Part shown: positions 3,001-61,930 of the stretch, one piece after another
Position numbering within the stretch: position 1 is the stretch's first letter
Layout: each line of letters opens with the position of its first letter
DNA from: Neelides folsomi
Lineage: Eukaryota; Arthropoda; Collembola; Neelipleona; Neelidae
DNA: 64,000 bases
NCBI GenBank assembly: GCA_034687125.1
Contig: JAQGBZ010000013.1
Span: 372,001-436,000, forward strand
Direction of reading: 5' to 3'
Program-made: the position numbers and the translations under genes
Notes under the pieces: generated by a model
The model's input: the letters and a program-made list of their open reading frames with translations, nothing else
Told to the model about the DNA's origin: nothing
Databases searched by the model: none

Positions 3001-4859
3001 GCTAACTTATTGTTAGTATTATGACACGGCTCTTTTTAATTTCATTAATCCTTTTTCGTAAAAAGACCACTTGTTCGATTAAATAAATAAAGGATGATGA
3101 ATGATTAACAATACAAATAATCAATGAGACTTTAGATTTATAAGTTTAAATGTAATAATAATGCTGAAATGTAAAAGAAATTACAACTTCACATTAATTA
3201 ACCAATCTAAATGGCCAATTAAATAAATTTTCGCTTAATTCAAGCGAAAATTATCTCATTGAACTTGAGCCTAGAAATCTTGCATTCTTTCGCTAAGTCT
3301 TTGTGAGATTAAGTTCATAACTGTACGAAATTTTTGTAATGAAAATGAGTAATTATAATGAAAAGGGGAGTTTATTAAGCTAAAGGCGTAAGAAAGTCAC
3401 AATTTCATTTCTCGTTAAGTTTCTTAATTTGGAGGTTGTGAGAGGGACAAGTCAAGGGAGCTGTTAATTCTCGTAAAGAGGGAAAGTTGTTGAGTGGGCT
3501 GGAAGACAAGTCCACAGTCTTGTTGATACGGTTCGATGAGTCCGATAGGCTGAAAAAACTTTCTCAAAATGCAAAGTTTGTCCATGAAGAAAGCAAAACC
3601 GAGGGTAGGATGAAATCAATTTAATTACGAGGGAGCTCAGCTCTGATTAAGAGAGAAGTTAGTGGGGAGGAGAAAGTATTATCTCTTTACATGAATGCAT
3701 TACGGTAGGTATGAGAGGGAAAAAAGTTTAATCTCACAGAAGCCTAACGAAGGAGACTCATTCCAGCTCCTTGTGGACAGAAAGGGGATCCACATCAGAG
3801 GAAAAGTTTTAATTAATCTTAGATTAAATTGTGGAGGCTTTTTTTCATAATAGTGAAGCTATGGGTCTCTTGATGAAAAAAGGATTAAGATGGTATAGCC
3901 CAAAGACTATGCTTTTTTTTAAACGAAAGAACACAGAGAGGGAAATATGTATGTATATGAGAGAATGTGTGGAGAATATGTGTCTCCGCCCGGCGGCTCG
4001 GACCCGGGTAGGATGAGTGAGGGGAGATGTTTTTGAATTTTTCTCTCGTTAATGTCCCCTCCTAAACCATTCAATTATATTGCTCTCATTCCGAAAAAAA
4101 CTCGGGGAGAGAGTTATTTAGTTAGTGGCTCTTTCTTTCTGCTCTCCTTTCATTTTTTCCCCTTCGAGAGTAGTAATCCTTAAAACTTCTCTCATTTCGG
4201 ATTTCCCTTTGGTCTATATGGTTCTATATGATGCTTTCCCAATAAGAGTCCTCCGCTCTCTTAATTTGTCGCCCACCATTATGATTATCGTCTCTCGGTC
4301 TCTCCGCAATGGAAATGGATCTATGGTCCGGAGAGCGAGTGTCACAGCTGAGTGAGTATAAAGAGGAGCTCAGCGTTTTTTCTCATTACTTAATCACCCC
4401 TTTTTTATACCAGTCGAAGTGAAGGGGGTTGTTTGCCACTATCATGTCTCCACACTCAATCCCCCTCCACATTCACTCCGTTTTTTCCACTTCCCCGTTT
4501 TTAATTCTCTCCTTATGCCCTTCATCTTCTCAGCTTGGAATTTTGATTCATGAGCAATCAATCGATTTGGACGTACACAACTGCTTCCTTTCCCACACAA
4601 ACTTTTTTTCACATTATACAAACTTTTATTTTCGCTTCAACGACACGCTCATGCAAACACCTCCATATATTACCAGGATTCCTACTTATGTATTTATAAG
4701 TAAATACCCTTATCGAAAATTGTTGAGAAAATCTTACGCATGTTTTAATTTGAATGAAATAAATCTCTTCATAAGTTCATAACGCATTTTAGGGGTTTTC
4801 GTATGATGTTTGGGAAGTGTTTGATTTATGATGTAATCAAGTATGTATTTTGTTTTCAG
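1..4859. other. Gene-free region upstream of METTL9 exon
   Basis: No exon of a recognisable protein was found on either strand. Open frames here are short, lack family similarity and lack paired splice sites. Patches that are clearly richer in G and C than the surrounding AT-rich DNA lie at about 130-800, 1300-1700, 1990-2880, 3400-4040 and 4100-4560. They contain many CATTAA/TTAATG and TAATTA words of the kind homeodomain proteins bind. The missing 5' exon or exons of METTL9 must lie here or before the window, so much of this could be a first intron with regulatory elements. That reading is inference. An 11-bp perfect inverted repeat with a 5-nt loop lies at 3226-3252. Confidence 0.5.
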
Positions 4860-8216: not shown

Positions 8217-11200
8217 ATGCATCTTTACAATTTGACGCTCCAGCGAGCCACTGGGATCACCCATGCGATCCATGGGAATTTCAGCGGCTCGAAACTCCAA
8301 GAAATAGTCATTTCAAGGGGGAAGATCATGGAGCTCCTTCGACCCGACCCCAACACCGGCAAAGTCATTACACTGCTGAGCGTCGAAGTATTTGGAGTTA
8401 TTAGATCTATGATGTCGTTCAGACTAACTGGGGGAGTAAAAGGTGAATATTTATATATCACAATATACTTAATATTAATTAAAAATTAAGTGCGAACCTA
8501 GAGTCACAAATTTGATACCTTATCACTTTTGTGCTATAGGATTCGAAAATTAAAAGCTTCTAAATTATGCACATGCATAATGCATTCATGTAAGTTCATT
8601 TCGTGATTGCCTGAACGGTTGCGACAAATTATAATATTAATCAGATTATAAGAATTATTAACGATTTCATTTAGCGACAAAAGTTTAAGTTTCATCTTAA
8701 TTTTTTTCAGATTACATCGTTGTTGGTTCGGATTCGGGACGAATTGTTATTTTCGAGTACAATCCATCAAAAAATTCTTTTGATAGAATTCACCAAGAAA
8801 CATTTGGCAAAAGTGGTTGCAGAAGAATTGTTCCTGGACAATACTTAGCAATTGACCCAAAAGGAAGAGCTGTTATGATTGGTGAGTTAAAATTCTTACT
8901 TTATAATTTTTACTATGCTACATTTGATAGACAATAATTAAAATTGATTTTTATTTATTATAGGAGCAATTGAGAAGCAAAAGTTAGTATATATTTTAAA
9001 TCGAGATGCCCAAGCAAGACTAACAATTTCATCCCCTTTAGAGGCTCATAAGAGCAACACTTTTGTTTATAACATCGTTGGTGTTGATGTTGGATTTGAA
9101 AATCCTATGTTCGCCTGTTTGGAAATGGACTATGAGGTAAATTATCTGCTAAAATTAAACCCGATAAGTTAAATGCTTATACTTATATGCAAAGTGCGAA
9201 CCTAGAGTCACAATTTTGATCTGTATCAATCGTGTGCTATAGGATTCGAAAAGTAAAAGGCTGCTAAATTATGCACAAACATGCAATTTGCCATTCCATG
9301 TTTGCCACAGATGCTGCAACATTTTTAATATTTTTAATATTTTATTACATTCATGAATAGTTTTAAGTATTTGGATCATTTCATATTTTGTATCAATAAG
9401 TTCTAATAATTAAATTTCAGGAAGCCGATCTAGATCCAACGGGAGAAGCTGCTCAGAACACAAAACAGACTCTTACTTTTTATGAGTTGGACTTGGGACT
9501 TAACCACGTTGTTAGAAAGTACAGCGAACCTCTTGATGAACATGCCAATTTTCTTATAACTGTTCCTGGAGGAAATGAAGGACCTAGTGGAGTTTTAATT
9601 TGTTCTGAAAACTACATTACTTATAAGAATCTTGGAGATCAACCTGATATTCGATGTCCTATTCCAAGAAGACGGGTAAATCATTTTGTACTAATAAGCT
9701 AATATGGCTATTTATCACAATACAAAAGTTAGTAGACATAACGATAAACAATATTATACTAGCTTCACATAGATAATTTCTTAGTTTAGGTTCATTCACA
9801 TTTAGATAAGATTATTTTAAACTATCATGCATTCACAAGCGACAAATTAAATATAAGTAAAGCACTTCGGTATCTCCAATATTTGAAAATACATATTCAA
9901 TATTGGTCGTTTTGGTGCAAAAGCAAATTCAGATCATCGTTAGATTCTTTGCTATTAATGTAAAGTATCTTGGTTTTCATTTCTGATACATTTGCTCTAG
10001 CTAAAATGAAAAAAAAAGAATTCGATAATTTGTATTTGTTGGTTGTGGCTACGCAGAATGATTTGGACGATCCTGAACGTGGGATGATTTTTGTGTGTTC
10101 AGCTGCCCATAAGACGAAGAGCATGTTCTTCTTCCTGGCCCAAACTGAGCAAGGAGACATCTTTAAAATCACGCTTGAGATCGATGAGGATATGGTGACT
10201 GAGATTAAGCTCAAATACTTTGACACAACTCCGGTTGCAATTTCGATGTGCGTCCTCAAGACTGGATTCCTCTTTGTAGCTTCTGAATTCGGAAACCAGT
10301 AAGTAATTTTATTAACATAATTTATTTGCATCGTGCTATTTAAAACCTTTTTGATTATAATGACTTTATTTTCATTTTAGTTACCTTTACCAAATTGCTC
10401 ATCTTGGTGATGACGATGATGAACCAGAATTTAGTTCAGCTATGCCACTCGAAGAAGGGGATACATTTTTCTTCGCTCCAAGACATTTAAGGAATCTTGT
10501 TCTGGTCGATGAACTTGATTCTTTATCACCTATTATTAATTGTCAAGTCGCTGACTTGGGTAAGGATACTTTTAAATATTTTTTTATATTGTAAAATTAC
10601 ATTGAAAATGAAGTTTAATAGATTTTTCCATGATAAAATATTTATTTGCTTTATTTTTATTCAAATAGCAAACGAAGATACTCCTCAACTTTATATGCTT
10701 TGTGGAAGAGGTCCACGCTCTTCCCTTCGTGTCCTTCGGCATGGTCTCGAAGTATCTGAAATGGCCGTATCTGAACTTCCTGGTAACCCTAATGCTGTAT
10801 GGACTGTGAAAAGACGAGCTGATGGTAAATAACATTTTATAGATTTTTTACATTATTTCAAATGATGTCTTTCATGTTAGACTTATGAATTTCATTGATT
10901 CAAAAATAAAGCTGATGTTTTCCATTTAAAAAAATGTAAAAGGGGATCGATTAACAATTAAAAATGAATATTGTTATTTTATAGATGATTTTGATTCATA
11001 CATTATTGTATCGTTCGTGAATGCCACACTTGTTCTCTCGATTGGTGAAACAGTTGAAGAAGTAACAGATTCCGGATTTTTGGGAACAACTCCAACACTC
11101 AGTTGTTCTATTTTGGGAGAAGATGCCCTTGTTCAGGTAATTTGATACTTATTGAATTATAATTTTATACATTTTATGGTCGAGCCTAGAGTCACTTTAT

Positions 11201-14200
11201 TGCTAAATATCCATGCAAAAAAGTGCTAGAGGTGTCGAAAAGTAAATGGCTTCTTCTCTTATGCACAAACTTGAATCATTATTTCATTTTTGACACAACA
11301 GATGCAACAATTTCTTTAAATTATAATCTATGATGAATTTATTTCTCATACAATTACATTTTATTATCGCTATTATAAATTACCTATATCTTTTATGTTT
11401 TACTTTAGATTTACCCTGATGGTATTCGTCACATTCGAGCTGATAAGCGTGTTAACGAATGGAAAGCTCCTGGGAAGAGATCCATTCTTCGCTGCGCTGT
11501 AAATCAGAGACAAGTTGTAATTGCCCTTACTGGTGGTGAACTCGTTTATTTCGAAATGGACCCGGTAATAATTTTTCGATTTATTTTAGAAAATGGGTTT
11601 TAAACCTTTAATGTTAATTATATTGTTAGGCATTGCATTGAAAGGTTATTTCCTCTACCTCATTAGAGGTGAATGTGTCAATCAATGCAAGATCAAGTCC
11701 CCATCAAAACCATTGGGCAAAATACTTTATTTTGTCTTCACTGATAGAATGGGAACATTATATTTTTCAAAAATGAATTCCTGTATTATTTAGAAAAAAA
11801 TAGAATTGGATAGTTAATAATATTGAGTTACCTTTTCGGAAATAAGAATATTTTCTTATATTTTAGACTGGACAACTGAACGAGTACACAGAACGAAGAG
11901 AAATGCCTGCTGATGTTCTTTGTATGAGTTTGGGTTCAGTGCCTGTTGGAGAACAACGATCTAGATTCTTAGCAGTCGGACTTGCTGATAACACTGTTCG
12001 AATCATTTCATTAGATCCTCTCGTAAGTCTAATTTATAATTTTAATTGTAATTTTTTGCTTATTTATTCTACTAATATTAATTATTGTTTTGTGATGATT
12101 TTAGGATTGTTTATCGCCATTGAGTATGCAAGCCCTTCCTGCCCTCGCCGAGTCTCTTTGCATAGCAGAAATGGGTGGAACTGAAGATGCTCAACAAGGC
12201 GTTATTTATCTTAACATTGGTCTTGAAAACGGTGTATTACTTCGGACAATATTGGATCCAGTGACAGGAGATTTAGCTGATACAAGAACGCGATATTTAG
12301 GATCAAGACCAGTCAAGCTTTTCAGAATTAAAATGCAAGGAGGAGAAGCAGTTTTGGCCATGTCAAGTCGATCATGGCTTTCATATTATTTCCAAAATAG
12401 GTAAATATTTAACTTTTTAATATGATAATTGATCTAGAAATTAAAATGATGATATAAAACTTTGAGTTGCCTTTCACGCTGATGTTTTGTGATTAGTAAA
12501 AGTTATACACCCTGATTATATTATATTTAATTATAAATTCATAATTTCGTTTTAAAGTTTTCCATATTCACAATTTTTTGTATTAATTTCAGATTTCATC
12601 TTACTCCGCTTTCCTATGAAACACTCGAATATGCATCTGGTTTTTCATCAGAACAATGTCCTGAAGGAGTCGTTGCCATTTCTACTAATACTTTGAGGAT
12701 TTTGGCTATGGAGAAATTGGGAGCTGTATTTAACCAAATGTCATTTCCTTTAGAATACACTCCTAAAAAATTTGTTATTCATACCGAAACTGGTAATTTG
12801 ATTATTATCGAAACTGACCATAATGCATATACAGAAGTTGTTAAGAGCCAAAGAAGAGTACAAATGGCTGAGGTGAGAATTTATTCGGAATTAATTTATT
12901 TTATCTGTCAAACATTGGTAATTGGTGTTTAAATTGTTATTTAATTTATATAAGGAAATGAAAGAAGCAGCTGGACCCGATGAACAAGAATTAGCCAAAG
13001 AAATGGCAGATGCCTTCTTGAATGAAGACCTTCCTGAAGGGACATTTGGAGCTCCGAAGGCCGGAGCCGGAATGTGGGCTTCGATTTTACGTATAATGGA
13101 TCCCATTGAAGGCAAAACTCTCTTTTTACATCGGTTTGAACAAAATGAAGCAGCCATGAGGTAAATAGCCCAATTCACACATAATGTAGAACGTATTTTA
13201 ATAATTTATTAATTCCTACCCTCAATCGAGGAGTGGAAAGTGATGAAGTTTTATGAATAATTTATTTTCTTTCCCTTAGTTTGGCCTTTTGTAAGTTTCA
13301 ATCCCAGGGAGAATATACTCAATATCTCGTTGTTGGCATTACCAAAGGCCTCGAACTCGTTCCTCGAGTTGTCAATTCGTCTTATCTTTATCTTTACAAG
13401 TAATGAAATGACACTTTATAATTTCTTTTTAACTTCTATGTATTCACTGTATTCTTCATATCTTATACAGTAATCTTAATGCTAACCATGTTTAATGCTT
13501 ATTTAGGATAAATTCCGAATGCACTCAATTGGACTTTATTCATAAAACTTTAATTGATGAAGTCCCATATGCAATGACATCTTATCAAGGAAAAATTCTT
13601 GTCGGTGTAGGAAATGCTCTTCGATTGTATGACTATGGAAAGAAGAAACTCTTAAGAAAAAGTGAAAATAGGGTGAGTAAATAATAATATTTTTAAGCGT
13701 TTATGATTACGATGATGTAAATTAACGCCTCTGACTTTTGAGTGAAGACTATTGGTGTTCTGCAGTACTGAGTAGTTAATAATTAACTTATAATTTAATG
13801 AATATTCTCGATTTATGAACAATGGAATATTAATTTTTAATTTATTTTATAGCATATTCCTCATATGATTGTGCACATTGCCACAATGGGATCGCGGATT
13901 TACGTGTCGGACATTCAAGAAAGTGTCCATTTCATTAGATATAAGCGACCAGAGAATCAACTTGTACTTTTTGCCGATGAAACGAATCCTCGATGGGTCA
14001 CGACATCATGTGTTCTTGATTATGATACTGTTGCGGTTGCAGACAAATTTGGAAATATTGCCGTCGTAAGTGTTAATTTTTTTTAATGGAACAGTATTCC
14101 TAACTAGTATTGAATTTTATTTTACTAAATGTTTTCTAGTGAATCTAATTAATTATATTTATTTAACAGTTGAGACTTCCAACAAATACTTCTGATGATG

Positions 14201-14919
14201 TTGATGAGGATCCCTCTGGAACAAAAGCTTTGTGGGATCGTGGGCTTCTTAGCGGAGCTTCAAACAAATTGGAAGTTTTGTGTAGCTTTTATGTCGGCGA
14301 AACAATCCTCTCACTACAGGTAAATGCAATACCCTTTAAATATTCTAATTTTAAACAGTTATCTGATGAAATTTTAGTCCGTGTTTCACCTGATCTAATG
14401 ATTAATATAACTAAACTGAGAACTTTGTTTTCGAAAATAATTTTTATAAATAATTTTTCGCATTGCTTAAAATGGTAATTTAATTTTCAGAAAGCCACGT
14501 TGATTCCTGGAGGAAACGAGTCTTTGGTTTATACAACTTTGAGTGGATCGGTTGGAATATTAGTTCCATTTACATCTCACGAAGACCACGATTTCTTTCA
14601 ACATCTCGATATGCATATGAGGAGTGAGAATCCTCCTCTTTGTGGACGTGATCATCTTTCCTATAGATCTTATTATTTCCCTTGCAGAGTGAGTTATCAT
14701 TATAAATATTCAATTCAAAATTTCAATAAATGGTTATAAATTATGCAACGGGTCAATAATTGATTTATTTTATTTTAGAATGTCATTGACGGTGACTTGT
14801 GTGAACAATTTAATTCGCTTGATCCAGCAAAACAAAGAAGTATAAGCGAAGATCTCGATAGAACTACTAACGAAGTAGCTAAAAAGCTTGAAGATATAAG
14901 AACACGTTATGCCTTTTAA
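8217..14919 (+). CDS. SF3B3: Splicing factor 3B subunit 3 (SAP130)
   Basis: Nineteen coding exons: 8217-8442, 8711-8881, 8964-9136, 9421-9675, 10057-10298, 10381-10559, 10669-10824, 10985-11136, 11409-11564, 11867-12022, 12105-12400, 12593-12872, 12955-13160, 13280-13399, 13507-13672, 13853-14065, 14170-14319, 14491-14688, 14779-14919. All phases close, giving 1211 aa (human 1217). Similarity to human SF3B3 runs from [14 protein letters not shown] to the last residues [12 protein letters not shown]. Family architecture is three WD40-like beta-propellers, with an N-terminal MMS1-type region and a C-terminal CPSF_A domain. It is part of the SF3b complex of U2 snRNP, which helps fix the branch site in the nucleus. 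Introns 1, 3, 8, 9, 11, 15 and 17 hold candidate snoRNAs listed separately. Expected to be constitutively expressed. Confidence 0.98.
8490..8629 (+). ncRNA. Candidate H/ACA snoRNA, copy 1 of 3 (SF3B3 intron 1)
   Basis: The 5' hairpin has outer stem CGAACCTA with TAGGATTCG (one bulged A), a pocket with arms GAGT and CTA, and upper stem CACAAA with TTTGTG topped by TGAT/ATCA. It is followed by an H-box-like AAATTA about 14 nt below the pocket. The 3' end has ACA followed by AAT (ACA at 8624-8626). Two related copies lie in introns 3 and 8. The 3' hairpin is not clear to me. Transcription would be with the host pre-mRNA. Confidence 0.65.
9194..9324 (+). ncRNA. Candidate H/ACA snoRNA, copy 2 of 3 (SF3B3 intron 3)
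   Basis: It has the same outer stem (CGAACCTA / TAGGATTCG) and the same pocket arms GAGT and CTA as copy 1. The upper stem differs: CAC / GTG with TTGAT / ATCAA near the loop. H box AAAGTA, then a second hairpin with a perfect 8-bp stem CAAACATG / CATGTTTG, and ACA at 9319-9321 followed by TTT. Long stretches are nearly identical to copy 1 (for example the first 20 bases and CTAAATTATGCACA), so the copies arose by intron-to-intron duplication. Confidence 0.68.
11179..11312 (+). ncRNA. Candidate H/ACA snoRNA, copy 3 of 3 (SF3B3 intron 8)
   Basis: More diverged member of the same family. The pocket context CCTAGAGTCAC ... GTGCTA is kept, but the upper stem is CACTTT / AAAGTG where copy 1 has CACAAA / TTTGTG. 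Both strands changed together, as expected for a maintained RNA helix. H box AAAGTA, shared TTATGCACAAAC in the 3' domain, and ACA at 11307-11309 followed by ATT. Confidence 0.66.
11630..11760 (+). ncRNA. Candidate H/ACA snoRNA with both hairpins intact (SF3B3 intron 9)
   Basis: The 5' hairpin has lower stem TTGCATTGA (11633-11641) with TCAATGCAA (11682-11690), pocket arms AAGGTT and GTGTCAA, and an upper stem ending in CCTCTA / TAGAGG (11652-11657, 11664-11669). H box AGATCA at 11690-11695 begins 15 nt after the pocket top. The 3' hairpin has lower stem CCCAT / ATGGG (11700-11704, 11749-11753) and upper stem CAAAATA / TATTTTG (11718-11724, 11728-11734), extended by G-U/G-C pairs. ACA at 11755-11757 is followed by exactly three bases. 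The spacing fits the 14-16 nt rule for H/ACA guides. It is unrelated in sequence to the three-copy family. The target was not identified. Confidence 0.82.
12442..12520 (+). ncRNA. Possible C/D box snoRNA (SF3B3 intron 11)
   Basis: A perfect C box ATGATGA (12446-12452), a C'-like CTGATG (12479-12484) and a D box CTGA (12512-12515) lie at normal spacing in an intron. The terminal stem is weak (two A-T pairs) and no good D' box is seen. I could not match the guide upstream of D to rRNA from memory. It could be chance in AT-rich DNA. Confidence 0.4.
13706..13776 (+). ncRNA. Candidate C/D box snoRNA (SF3B3 intron 15)
   Basis: C box ATGATGT (13712-13718), D' CTGA (13731-13734), C' GTGAAGA (13742-13748) and D CTGA (13768-13771) are in order. 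A 5-bp terminal stem ATTAC (13706-13710) with GTAGT (13772-13776, one G-T) closes the RNA. Total length is 71 nt, normal for the class. Guides just upstream of D' (TAAATTAACGCCT) and D (GGTGTTCTGCAGTA) were not matched to a target from memory. Confidence 0.65.
14357..14424 (+). ncRNA. C/D box snoRNA with LSU rRNA guide, U38-like (SF3B3 intron 17)
   Basis: Boxes: C CTGATGA (14363-14369, core TGATGA perfect), D' CTGA (14390-14393), C' ATGATTA (14398-14404), D CTGA (14416-14419). Terminal stem AGTT (14357-14360) pairs with AACT (14421-14424). The guide GTCCGTGTTTCA (14377-14388), one base before D', is perfectly complementary to the conserved LSU rRNA segment UGAAACACGGAC, the site of the common fungal LSU primer LR3R. 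By the D+5 rule the predicted 2'-O-methyl site is the middle A of GAAAC. From memory this matches the site served by the U38 / yeast snR72 type guides, but that name should be checked. Confidence 0.82.
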
Positions 14920-15396: not shown

Positions 15397-18300
15397 TTAC
15401 GATTGGCCATAAGTCAAGTACTTTGCTGCCCAATCTATTCGACCTAATGCTGCAGCAGGTTTGGTTTTTAATCCAAAATTTCCAGCTCCTTGAATGAAGG
15501 CACTCTTACGAGATTCATATGTTGAAGAAGGGAATGAGTGAGGATTCCTAATGTAGCTACTCTGAATGACAGTTGGTCCTTTTGGGACATTCGATCGTCC
15601 ACTTAGGATTAAGCTCATCTCCACACCTGTAATAAATCCAATGGGTGTGTTTCTTATTTATATTCGATTAGCCTTTGTGTAAGTGTGCAAAAAGGTTAAA
15701 GGACTCAAAGTTGTTTAACCCATTATTAATAATTGTTATATACGTACCTGAGGGCTGTTGAAAAAGGGATTTGGTATTTGCCTGTCCGGAAATGTAGCGT
15801 GCAATGGAGTTATTTTCTAGTTGGGCCAATGAAGAACGCTCGATTTTATTATTTTCCTCTTTATTTGGCATTCTGAGTCCTATAACAGAGTCGGCATATC
15901 CACCGGTTCGCCCGAATCCACCGAAAGTCTTTTCCAGCTCGTTCAAATTTCTATATAACCAATAACAATAACATAAATAATGCATTACCTATGCAAGCAA
16001 CGTCAGATATTAACATCGAAGAGTTCTACATTATTATTTACTTACTTAATAAGCCCAAATATCCATTTAGAATATTTATTTACTATAAATGCATAGCATT
16101 GGATAAGGAAGCATTAAAGTAAGAATGATGAATTTGACTAATTACTCGACAAGTGGGTCAATATTTTCGTCACGAAGAGGTCCCAGGTTTGCAAAGTTGA
16201 TTTTCCTATCGTAGATGTTTAAAGGGTCGAAATTCACTTTGGATGTAGCGAAAGGAACATTGACGTTGACGTTGACTTGGGGTTGAGTCTGAGGTTGTTG
16301 GGTCATCACAAGTGTTTGGGTCAAAAGATCTGGTTGTGATCGTTCTGGCCCTGCTGTGCTGCTTTTCCGTCTCTGTCGAACGCTCCCAAAAAACGCGTAC
16401 CTTTGTTTGATTTAATATTGTTAGTGGAGGAAAAAATTAGAGAAACAATAAAATCCTTTGTATTTTATTAAATAGAGTTTTATATTGATTTTTGATATCG
16501 CAATGATCTTAATCTAATGATAATAATTAATTCACGCTGTGTATTCATTTTAGTAGAATGTTTCGAGTCGACAACGGCTATTAGATGACTTTCTACGTAA
16601 TTTATAATTTTAGATAAATTAAAGTAGGTAAGTAAATATGCCATAAATTGAAAGTATGATTTTATTTCTGGATAGTAAATATGTAATAAATGGATGTTAT
16701 TAAACATTAATGGACTATCAAATTCCTGATGAAATATTTTTTGTCTTTCATATGGGTTAAGGTCTGTATCAAAGCGATTTTGTCAACTACGCATCAATTT
16801 CGTATTTCACTGTTTGCATGCACATGTTGGTATTGTATGTCTGTTTTATTGAGTGATGAAATATTGATTTCCGAACATTGCACGGAACTCACCTTAAGGA
16901 CTGGTTAGCGGTCGGTCGCTGTTTGGGATTCCACCGTAGCATGTCTTCGATAAGAAAAATTGCATTTTGACTCGCATTCGGGATTATCTTTCTCAAAGGC
17001 GTTGAATCAAATTGAGGAAGCTTCAGGTTCATGTGTTTGGCCAATACAAATGCTTCCGGCCAATCGGCCTGTAGATAACGAAATAATGACGCGTTTAATT
17101 ATAATTTTAATTATATCAGTAATTTATAATTTTGTAAGTTAAAACTTTTATATATTTTCTAAATTACAAATTTAAAGTACCATTAGTACGAGAGTATTTA
17201 TTATTTAGGATGTATGCATCACTAGTTTATTGATCAAAAGTTGTGACAGTATTCTAGGGTAAATACTTAATTGACGTTTCAAAAATTTGGGCTAGTGAGC
17301 AGTGAGCATACATTAAGCAAAAATGGGGCACGGGGTTTATTGTGTTGATTGGTTTGATTCAAGAATTCGTACTGTTGATGGCAAAACCGATAAAAAATCG
17401 ACAAGTTTTGATGAAAGCAAAGACCTAGAACTCTACTTTCTCCAGACCTTTTAGTTCAAACACAAATAGTGTGACGTGTGACCGTTAAAAACAAAATACA
17501 AAAAACCAATGCATGTTAAAGTTTTAAGTAAATATTATTAAATAGAGCAGAAAAGTTTAAAGAATGGACAATTGGGGATACAAAGGAATAGAAAATATGT
17601 TAAATGAGTTATGTAAAGTAAAATAATGAAAAAGAGAATAAAGTACCTTATCGGGAGTCCCCAGAACGGAGCAAATCTTAAAAATTTCGTCGATTTCACT
17701 CGTGCCAGGGAAAAGAGGGCGGAAAGTAAAGAGTTCGGCCATTATGCAACCAACGGCCCAAATATCAATAGGGCTATTGTAGTATGGAGCTCGTAATAAA
17801 ACCTCTGGAGCTCGATACCTAAAATTATAGATTGAAATAAAATTATAAATTATTAAACAATCGAAAGAATTTAATCAATTTTCCTAAAATAGTTATATTT
17901 TCCAAGATCAAAAGCTATTGATCATAAGGCGGATATTAGATAAAAATCACTTTAAAATTTTCATTACCATCTTGTTGAGACGTATTCGGTATATGGAGGT
18001 CTCGAACGAATTTCTCTAGCTAAACCAAAATCCGCTATTTTGATAAGGTCTGGACCCATGCAAAGCAGATTTTCCGGTTTCCTAATAAAATTACTCTTTG
18101 CATTCATTGAATGATGTTGGTGTGCAATTTCATTTATGATATAATTTCACTATAAGAATTCATAAATAAATACGAGTAATACATGTCACGATGAAAGAAT
18201 CCATGTTTATGCATAAAAGCTAGTCCTTCTAATATTTGATATATCATATTGGCAATGACGTCTTCCGGAAATATTTTTTCTCTGAAAAATAAATAACTTT

Positions 18301-47728: not shown

Positions 47729-50700
47729 TTATTCAGCGTTTCTTGTCTTCCGGAGTATTTTAGAACATCCCCTGAAACAAACATTAAATCACAATCACAT
47801 TAAATCACATGCATCCAATGATTATCACAAAAATAATTTATAAATTGTAAAAAAAAACTAATAAATTACCGTGAATCTCTGGTTATTTCGTAAAAGTGGT
47901 CAACACGATCAACATGGAGAAGTCGATCAATGAAATCTTCATCGTGGGTGATAACGACAAGCTGGAACGTTTTCGAGTCTTGCATTTTAACTGAAATGCT
48001 GAATAAATAAAATAATAATTAATGAACACTTGAAATGAAAATTAATAACAATTTCGTTGGATCAAAATTCAAACTTACTCAGCTAGAGTATCAGCCAAAG
48101 CCCGACTGTTTTTCATGTCCTAAATAACAATAATGAACCAAAACATCAGAAGCATGTTATTTAAATTAAATTATTATTTGTGAATACATATTTTATTCAT
48201 TATTCGTCATACCAAACTTGAAGTTGGTTCATCAAGGGCGATAATTCCACACTTGGTATTGAACGCCTCAGCAATGGCAATTCTAATTATGAGAGACGCA
48301 AGAATCTTTTGACCAGCACTGCATCGATTTCTCATGTCCAATTCGACATCTCCACGTTTCATTACAACTCTAATGATATCAATCAGTGATTAATGTTTTC
48401 ATTTAAAACTAAAAAGGTTTCTTTCATAAGCGTAAGTAATAAAAATTTCCAAAATTACCTATATGAATAACTCTTCTTCACTGTTGATTTATACGGCGTT
48501 CCATTCATTTTATCTTGATCAGGCCCCCCAGTTTTAATTTCAATGTAGTCAATGTCAGAACCTTTATAGATGCATTTCCAAAGTTCTTTAACTCTCTCGT
48601 TAATGATTGTCATCTTTTGTTCATGGTATGCCACAATGGAATCGTCAAGAGCTTCTTTGTAATTTGCTACTTCTTTGACAGCCATTTCATGAACTGTTTT
48701 CCTCACAAGTTTTTCCATATAATCCTCCTCTGCACTTGAATAGGGTTTCTTGGACAAATCCCTTTTCAGTGTATTTACCGACGACTCGGTTTCTCTTCTA
48801 AGGCTTTGTACTTCGGCAAGTTTGGCCGTAAGTCCTTTTACAATTGTAGCAAGAGCAGCCCTTTCACCCGCAGCTCCTTCATTGGCATTTGCCAAGTTTT
48901 GCTCTTGTTCTAAAAGGTCACTGCGAAGTTTCATCACTTCCTCTTCTTTCCTCTTGTACACTTGGTTGTCAAGAAGATCTCTTTCTTTCATGTCTTGAAG
49001 ACCAATTTCAGTCCGCTGAATTTCAATGTATTCGGTTAATTCCTTTTTCTTCGTTTCTCCCTTCTCGATGGTTTCCTTACACTCGGTGTATTTTTGTTGA
49101 CTCACATTGAACTTGGTTTTTGCCTCTTCAAAATCGGCAATTTGATGTTGAAGCTCATTGAGACGAATTTTATGTCGCTCGATTAATTCTTTTTCAGTCC
49201 GAATCGTAGCAAGTTCTTTGTCTTTCTCAATACCCGAGGCAGTTCGTTGTTTCTCGGTGTCCAAAATACCAATCTTAAAATTTGGGATTGATAAAGTAAG
49301 AGCTTCAATTTGTGATTCCATCTCTTTGTTTTCTTCTTCGAGTCCTTTCTTCTGTTCTAACAAAGAATCCCGGTTTTGCATTTCAAGACTAATTCGGGCT
49401 TTTTCTTCAAGGACTTCCAATTTCTTCTGACGAAATTTGTCCAAAATTTCACGATTTCTGGCAAGCATTTCTTCCTTATTTTCCTTCAAAGTTTTCTTTG
49501 CATGAAGATTCGCTTTAAGATCTAAAAGTTCAGTCTGAGCAACGAGGAAATTCATGGAACACTCTATAAAAACATTAATTTAGAATTACAATAAAATAAA
49601 CAATGATGCAATTACTGCAAAGAAAGAATTTTTTTCTTCAAAATAATCAACTTAATTTAATTACCGTTAGCTTTTGGATTTCTGAGTCCCTCGATTTTTT
49701 CGAGAAGTCCTTGAAACTTCCGAACGTCCTTCATGTATGAATCGTAGAGCGTGTAAGCATTTGAGAGTTCAACGATAAGGGTAAATTCTTTTTTGGTTAT
49801 CGCAATTTTAGCTGTGAGCTCTTCTACTTCACGGATCAATTCAGAAGTTCTCTTTTCAAGTTCGATCTTTTCTTCTTTCAGTTTGGGAATGACCAATTGA
49901 TGATGGTTCCTGTCTTGGTCCCAGCTTGGTTTCAACTCGGAAAGACTCGCGTGAATATCCCGAAGTTTCTCAATCATGATGAGATCTTCTTCTTTATTTC
50001 CCATCTTCTTTTCGATCTTCTTCAACAACTATTAACAAAATCGAAATTTATATTTGTTAAAATATTGTTAATTTTTAAATATTGAATCAAATCAAATAAA
50101 GTTTAAGAGATTTGAGACAAACCTTTTCTTCAAGAATTTGAAGAAATTCTGGACTTTCGAAGTCTCTTTTACACAATGGGCATCCATTCCTATAATAATA
50201 TGAATTATTTATTGTGCTTAAACAAATTAAAATGGCTATTTATTTGTTTATTTTAATACTTGGCTTTCATCTTCTGGATATATTTATTGCATTGAAATTG
50301 AAGGGCATCAGAATAGTAATTGTCTTTTTCAGTTTTAGTGAGCTTCTCAGTAATTTCTTGATAAAATGAATCAAAATCGCGACCATCCAAACTCTCCCGA
50401 AGTTGCGTCCTCAAATCTTTATAATAATGAAAGAATTTATCCCATTAAAGACAATTACTATATTTGTAGGTAATTAGTTGATGAATTATTTAATATTTAT
50501 GTTATTCTTACTCTCCATCTCAGATTCCTTCTTCTCGACTTCGACTTTTTTCTGGTTGTAAGAATATTCCACTCTTCCATGTTCAAGTTCCTTTTTTTTG
50601 AGGTCCATTTGCATGTCATTGAGATCCTTTCTCTATAATAATTTAAAAGGTTAACGTTGATGACATTTAACTTTTACTACCAATTTTACTAATTCACTAA

Positions 50701-57585: not shown

Positions 57586-61930
<4,345 letters not shown>

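Follow-up and report, generated by a model that had tools for sequence, protein, structure and literature searches.

Three box H/ACA RNAs in introns of SF3B3 of Neelides folsomi share a 5' pocket that very probably addresses a long-known pseudouridine site of large-subunit ribosomal RNA

The box H/ACA small nucleolar RNAs (snoRNAs) SNORA3 (ACA3), ceN100 of C. elegans and yeast snR11 are the closest described counterparts of the RNAs reported here. The yeast 25S table lists pseudouridine (Psi) 2416, with snR11 as the guide, together with 2'-O-methyluridines (Um) at 2417 and 2421 (PMC8307265), and the human 28S table contains Psi3899 (100%) and Um3904 (PMC6182160). As a Um is equally 5 positions away (2421 and 3904), yeast Psi2416 is equated with human Psi3899. 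In a paper on chicken snoRNAs, an ACA3 relative is listed with 7+3 nt of 5'-pocket pairing at 28S-3409, the neighbouring sites of ACA31 and ACA54 being 3223 and 3311 (PMC2653536); in human, SNORA31 and SNORA54 are given at 3713 and 3801 (PMC9941101). Both neighbours are offset by 490, and chicken 3409 therefore corresponds to human 3899 (3409 + 490 = 3899). The chicken paper also describes cis-duplicated snoRNAs, in which copies occupy different introns of the host gene and keep guides and structure while the rest has diverged (PMC2653536). A stretch of 64,000 nt from the collembolan Neelides folsomi (GenBank accession number JAQGBZ010000013.1, positions 372,001 to 436,000 of the forward strand, hereafter the window) was found to carry three copies of a box H/ACA RNA in the gene for splicing factor 3B subunit 3 (SF3B3). 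The three are very probably guide snoRNAs duplicated within SF3B3, with a 5' pocket directed at the large-subunit (LSU) ribosomal RNA (rRNA) site that is Psi2416 in yeast and Psi3899 in human. The features concerned are as follows.

8217-14919, plus strand: SF3B3 host gene, coding span from the first ATG read to TAA
8443-8710, plus strand: intron with copy 1, starting with GT at 8443 and ending with CAG at 8710
8493-8629, plus strand: copy 1, box H/ACA snoRNA, with CTAGAGTC at 8498-8505, GTGCTA at 8531-8536, H box AAATTA at 8547-8552 and ACA at 8624-8626
8565-8581, plus strand: inverted repeat UUAUGCA-CA-UGCAUAA of copy 1, by which the guide arm of the 3' pocket could fold back on itself (-4.8 kcal/mol; 2/200 shuffles as good)
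9137-9420, plus strand: intron with copy 2, starting with GT at 9137 and ending with CAG at 9420
9197-9324, plus strand: copy 2, box H/ACA snoRNA, with CTAGAGTC at 9202-9209, GTGCTA at 9234-9239, H box AAAGTA at 9250-9255, TTATGCAC at 9269-9276 and ACA at 9319-9321
11137-11408, plus strand: intron with copy 3, starting with GT at 11137 and ending with TTTAG at 11408
11180-11312, plus strand: copy 3, box H/ACA snoRNA, with CTAGAGTC at 11186-11193, GTGCTA at 11223-11228, H box AAAGTA at 11239-11244, TTATGCAC at 11259-11266 and ACA at 11307-11309

The host gene was recognized from its protein product: the first coding exons (187 aa) matched Protein Data Bank chains that bear the name splicing factor 3B subunit 3 (E = 3.8e-106), and the exon at 11412-11567 matched the Pfam domain Beta-prop_RSE1_2nd, of the RSE1/DDB1/CPSF1 propeller family, at 7.9e-14. 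Each copy lies in the sense orientation within a separate intron, and alignment of the whole introns disclosed strong likeness from CGA(A/G)CCTAGAGTC to the ACA and nothing comparable beyond these limits. All three copies can be drawn in the order hairpin, H box, hairpin, ACA, with an H box of the form ANANNA and an ACA close to the predicted 3' end. The preliminary description of this locus had placed three paralogous H/ACA RNAs here; its coordinates were good to a few bases, and the boxes, the 5' hairpins and the matches to Rfam families agree with it. The 5' hairpins of copies 1, 2 and 3 were more stable than their dinucleotide shuffles (z = -4.96, -3.32 and -5.35, with 0/200 shuffles as good in each case). 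For the full length the corresponding values were -3.22, -0.58 and -1.61 (2/200, 55/200 and 10/200 shuffles as good), giving a clear signal for copy 1 only. The distance from pocket to box in H/ACA RNAs is about 14-16 nt; with the lowest pair of the 5' upper stem opened, as described below, it is 14 nt to the H box in all three copies, and copies 2 and 3 have the same distance between the 3' upper stem and the ACA.

The elements CCTAGAGTCAC and GTGCTA, which the preliminary description had taken as the ends of a common frame, are unchanged across the three copies. The guide segments of the 5' pocket are identical in 8/8 and 4/4 columns, as against 11/31 columns in the 5' upper stem with its loop and 11/36 in the 3' upper stem with its loop, and the earlier idea of a shared pocket, most likely for a single target, is supported. 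The compensatory change reported for the upper stem was confirmed in part. Between copies 1 and 3, CACAAA/TTTGTG becomes CACTTT/AAAGTG, that is, three A-U pairs are turned into U-A; copy 2 has A.G and U.C, an unpaired change, at two of these three positions. Changes on both sides were present in 4/32 pairs, three of them being those just mentioned. As many were reached by 33/500 shuffles, and the covariation score by 66/500, while sliding the partner columns by -1 or -2 gave 5 or 4 both-side pairs, as many as in the true register or more. The fraction of paired cells was 85.4% in the true register versus at most 50% when slid. Covariation from three sequences alone is modest; the stronger evidence is the identity of the guide segments amid diverged stems and loops, together with the matches to H/ACA families in Rfam, which lie below the gathering thresholds.

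When the C-G pair at the base of the upper stem was opened, the arms of the 5' pocket read CUAGAGUC and GCU(A). With these arms the two LSU pieces scanned have one and the same best site, GAGC-[UU]-GACUCUAG, with 3+8 pairs, all of them Watson-Crick, and a score of -20.0 versus -10.7 for the next site; the predicted target is 28S GAGCUUGACUCUAG. Shuffled target sets reached 11 Watson-Crick pairs in 1/1000 cases and the stacking-energy score in 18/1000. The target form UAG-UN-ACUC, given previously, left the C-G pair at the foot closed and was one base pair too narrow. We take the first U of GAGC-UU-GAC to be yeast Psi2416, a placing consistent with Um2417 and Um2421. The shared 5' pocket of all three copies most likely has one shared LSU target, a long-known modification site. 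The available portions of five further papers contain nothing on the predicted target (PMC7033134, PMC3511168, PMC5122169, PMC12288042 and PMC10227372).

The Rfam families nearest to the copies lead to the same site. A scan with a permissive threshold, covering 3051 bases, gave RF00334 (SNORA3/SNORA45) as the best match for copies 1, 2 and 3 (35.3, 32.5 and 37.0 bits; E = 1.9e-4, 8.8e-4 and 7.6e-5), followed by RF01607 (ceN100 of C. elegans; 34.7, 29.4 and 31.0 bits; E = 4.7e-4, 8.4e-3 and 3.6e-3), and the remaining matches had E values of at least 2. SNORA3/SNORA45 shares the arms CUAGAGUC and GCUA of the 5' hairpin, within the consensus CuAGaGUCaC...GuGCuA, and its consensus arms select the same best LSU site as the three copies. 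Its second hairpin differs, and so does the host: three copies in SF3B3 here, RPL27A for the chicken relative. Likewise, ceN100 has AGaGUCaC...GuGCuA in the 5' hairpin; it also shares the hinge CGAAAA and, where the 3' pocket begins, AUUAuGC. The likeness to yeast snR11 is by the predicted target U only. As in the chicken cis-duplicates, the guide regions are kept and the remainder has diverged; in the chicken table, by contrast, introns 3 and 6 of SF3B3 hold a SNORD111B relative of the C/D box type (PMC2653536).

The rRNA material scanned came from public contigs and comprised L004 and L005 (LSU of two eukaryotes, LSU_rRNA_eukarya) and part of L006 (small subunit, SSU), with L003 and L007 left out; it totalled 5579 bases, the two LSU pieces overlapping and the SSU contributing only 728 bases. 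The 18S stretch was not found in the genomes behind L004 and L005, and three more scans for fuller rRNA were also empty. L004 and L005 are eukaryotic LSU rRNA filed under bacterial metagenome assemblies, and L005, which ends in GGGGTTT repeats, seems to contain a long insertion around 830-1200, within the conserved core of the LSU. L006 (3632-4543) and L007 (4059-4305) are public viral contigs that join a piece of eukaryotic SSU rRNA to other sequence, presumably of levivirus-type phage, and these joins are likely assembly chimeras.

Several observations weigh against the assignment. The target was read in the rRNA of unrelated eukaryotes; rRNA of N. folsomi itself was not found in its assembly with 72 bases of 18S or 106 bases of 28S as query, nor with the 5.8S family or a 20-base 28S pattern, the DNA search being one that skips very common words, and its own 28S would have to carry the conserved target. 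In addition, the rRNA pieces were fetched by patterns containing the candidate sites, so that the presence of a site in them is not itself a result, and the weight rests on the shuffles and on the published Psi sites. When G-U counted as a full pair, 11 pairs were reached by 105/1000 shuffles. With one skip per arm and G-U allowed, a second L005 site equals the first, with 11 pairs, for the arms of copies 1 and 2; with those of copy 3 it has 9 pairs and no tie, and it sits in a stretch that looks like an insert. The 3' halves had no extra stability over shuffles (z = -0.50, +0.89 and +0.49 for copies 1, 2 and 3). Finally, none of 4227 Rfam families matched the window at its gathering threshold: the scores for RF00334 are under its gathering value of 51, with most of the second hairpin skipped in the alignments of copies 1 and 2, and no copy reached the 80 bits of RF01607. 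Formal membership of RF00334 is not claimed, since the gathering score was not reached.

The 3' pocket allows a more tentative reading. Its 5' arm contains TTATGCACA, identical in 9/9 columns in all three copies, as against 11/36 columns for the remainder of the upper stem with its loop. The 3' arms agree between copies at only 3/7 or 4/7 positions. In copy 2 this pocket fits the SSU site GUGG-[UG]-GUGCAUGG with 4+8 pairs, two of which are G-U, the predicted target being 18S GGGUGGUGGUGCAUGG. Shuffles reached 10 Watson-Crick pairs in 17/1000 cases, 12 pairs with G-U in 35/1000 and the energy in 24/1000, figures that precede any counting of the 3' pockets of the other copies, which were also tried. 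The fit is less neat than that of the first pocket, because the upper stem gives up its foot C for pairing with the rRNA and the G partner is left free. Copy 3 had no site under the strict rule in the scanned pieces and fits the same 18S site with a mismatch, one position beside the target being skipped on both strands. When the arm ends were left free, copy 3 gave no site of at least 9 pairs in these pieces, copy 1 reached 3+8 pairs on the 18S site provided that three guide bases were omitted, and one site in L005 had 11 pairs with copy 1 and 10 with copy 2. In copy 1 the 3'-pocket arm has its inverted repeat behind it and may be masked in a small hairpin; copy 1 probably does not use this pocket on the 18S site. 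Copies 2 and 3 may do so. The preliminary description had suggested a second target for each copy; this is not supported in that form, given the invariant TTATGCACA, the one 18S site fitted by copy 2 as well as, less exactly and with a mismatch, by copy 3, and the masking in copy 1.

A 3' hairpin can be drawn with the foot GC.UNC/GNUGC, mismatches included, although its stability does not exceed that of shuffles; one position of this foot varies between G-C (copy 2), U-A (copy 3) and U.U (copy 1), and the upper stem drawn above it suits copy 2 throughout and copy 3 in part. Folding the three together with RNAalifold, the check put forward earlier, yielded a common fold with UGCA/UGCA as the preferred 3' foot, which differs from the one drawn. 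This foot was set aside because it leaves the pocket without a 5'-side arm. The 3' structure drawn is tentative.

By its placement beside the 2'-O-methylguanosines (Gm) 1271 of yeast and 1328 of human, the candidate 18S U corresponds to yeast U1272 and human U1329. The part of the yeast paper available has no entry at 18S-1272 (PMC8307265), and the human table, as far as available, shows no Psi between Gm1328 and N4-acetylcytidine 1337 (PMC6182160). As the U is in neither table, the fit would reflect a modification specific to the lineage or else be due to chance. The adjoining nucleotide belongs to the decoding A site according to the yeast table (PMC8307265). In copies 2 and 3, guidance of a pseudouridine at GUGG-Psi-GGUGCAUGG of 18S by the second pocket is possible, with the odds against it; if true, the Psi would be a lineage-specific mark and copy 1 a natural mutant of the second guide. 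The AUUAuGC shared with ceN100 hints that the second guide is also old. The 3' pocket of ceN100 differs in having no same-register fit to the 18S site; strict rules gave no fit, and under a looser scan its best site lay in the same 18S stretch at a different U, so ceN100 is not counted as support. With only 728 bases of SSU scanned, further targets of the 3' pocket may have been missed.

Duplication inside SF3B3 would have produced the three intronic copies (cis type). Each RNA would be expressed at a length of ~130 nt, trimmed from the spliced SF3B3 intron and bound by the H/ACA proteins, which are dyskerin, NHP2, NOP10 and GAR1; the 5' pocket (CUAGAGUC and GCU) would hold the LSU sequence 5'-AGC-[UU]-GACUCUAG, and dyskerin would convert the first U to pseudouridine. 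As the predicted site is yeast Psi2416 and human Psi3899, the copies would do the work of SNORA3 and snR11. They are regarded as ordinary members of a well-understood kind that arose by ordinary duplication within a host gene, and they do not change the understanding of H/ACA RNA function. What is gained is a clear target for snoRNAs missed by the Rfam thresholds in this genome, with the pocket corrected, and a small natural experiment in which one guide is unchanged in three diverged copies and the second is kept, weakened or masked.

An alternative is that only one or two copies function and the rest are decaying duplicates, alike through descent. The inverted repeat able to pair with the 3'-pocket arm of copy 1, the two mismatches in the upper stem of copy 2 and the poor agreement of the second-pocket 3' arms (3/7 or 4/7 positions) would suit such decay. 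The loops and introns now align poorly, yet the 5' guide arms are identical in 8/8 and 4/4 columns, and three pairs of the 5' stem are changed on both sides between copies 1 and 3; on balance, partial decay is considered unlikely.

Two further explanations were weighed against guidance of the LSU site by all three copies. The shared pocket might serve a small nuclear RNA (snRNA) or another rRNA site, in line with the form UAG-UN-ACUC. A closed upper stem would yield such a narrower pocket, with arms GAGU and CUA, and sites of up to 5+6 pairs exist for it (copy 3 arms, L005). However, its pairings on the LSU pieces were 3+3 and 3+6 for copy 1 and 5+3 and 5+6 for copy 3, with scores from -8.0 to -12.4, and its best sites differ between the two pieces, whereas the wider pocket has 3+8 pairs at a site already known as Psi. 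Among three of the four U2 copies and both U6 copies, five versions of the pocket gave no site above 7 pairs and the pocket of the preliminary description none of at least 7, U1, U4, U5 and 5S not being included in the search. A different target of this type is thus highly improbable. A repeated splicing-regulatory element of SF3B3, in place of snoRNAs, would account for all three being intronic in one gene and for a search pattern found nowhere else; the H and ACA boxes, the 14-nt spacing, the strong 5' hairpins and the H/ACA family matches, consistent in all three copies though below threshold, make it scarcely credible. L014 (C479:26434-26625 of the N. folsomi genome) is a U2-like copy with a body rather unlike that of L012 and L013, and is either a variant or a pseudogene. 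On contig C742 of this genome, COX1 has 11 TGA codons and is read through under the invertebrate mitochondrial code.

Within the 75-Mb assembly, the exact pattern of CTAGAGTC, a gap and GCTANAGG occurred three times on the forward strand and not on the reverse, all occurrences being in SF3B3; the reversed control of this search gave 1 and 0 matches. A DNA search with copy 1 as query recovered copies 1 and 2 only, so diverged copies elsewhere could escape if their arms had changed. A model built from the three copies gave a weak match of 20.6 bits at 18153-18251 on the minus strand, which rests on TTATGCATAAACATG, is without the 5' pocket and is probably due to chance.

Another SF3B3 intron contains, at 12446-12515 of the window, a frame resembling a C/D box RNA (ATGATGA ... 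CTGA, TGTGATT ... CTGA); its would-be guides had no match in the scanned rRNA pieces, and its folding was like that of shuffles. Elsewhere in the window, an open reading frame at 48455-49579 on the minus strand may resemble RAD50 but had no Pfam match. The segments 59202-59762 and 60395-60979, on the minus strand, are exons of a meckelin (TMEM67) gene.

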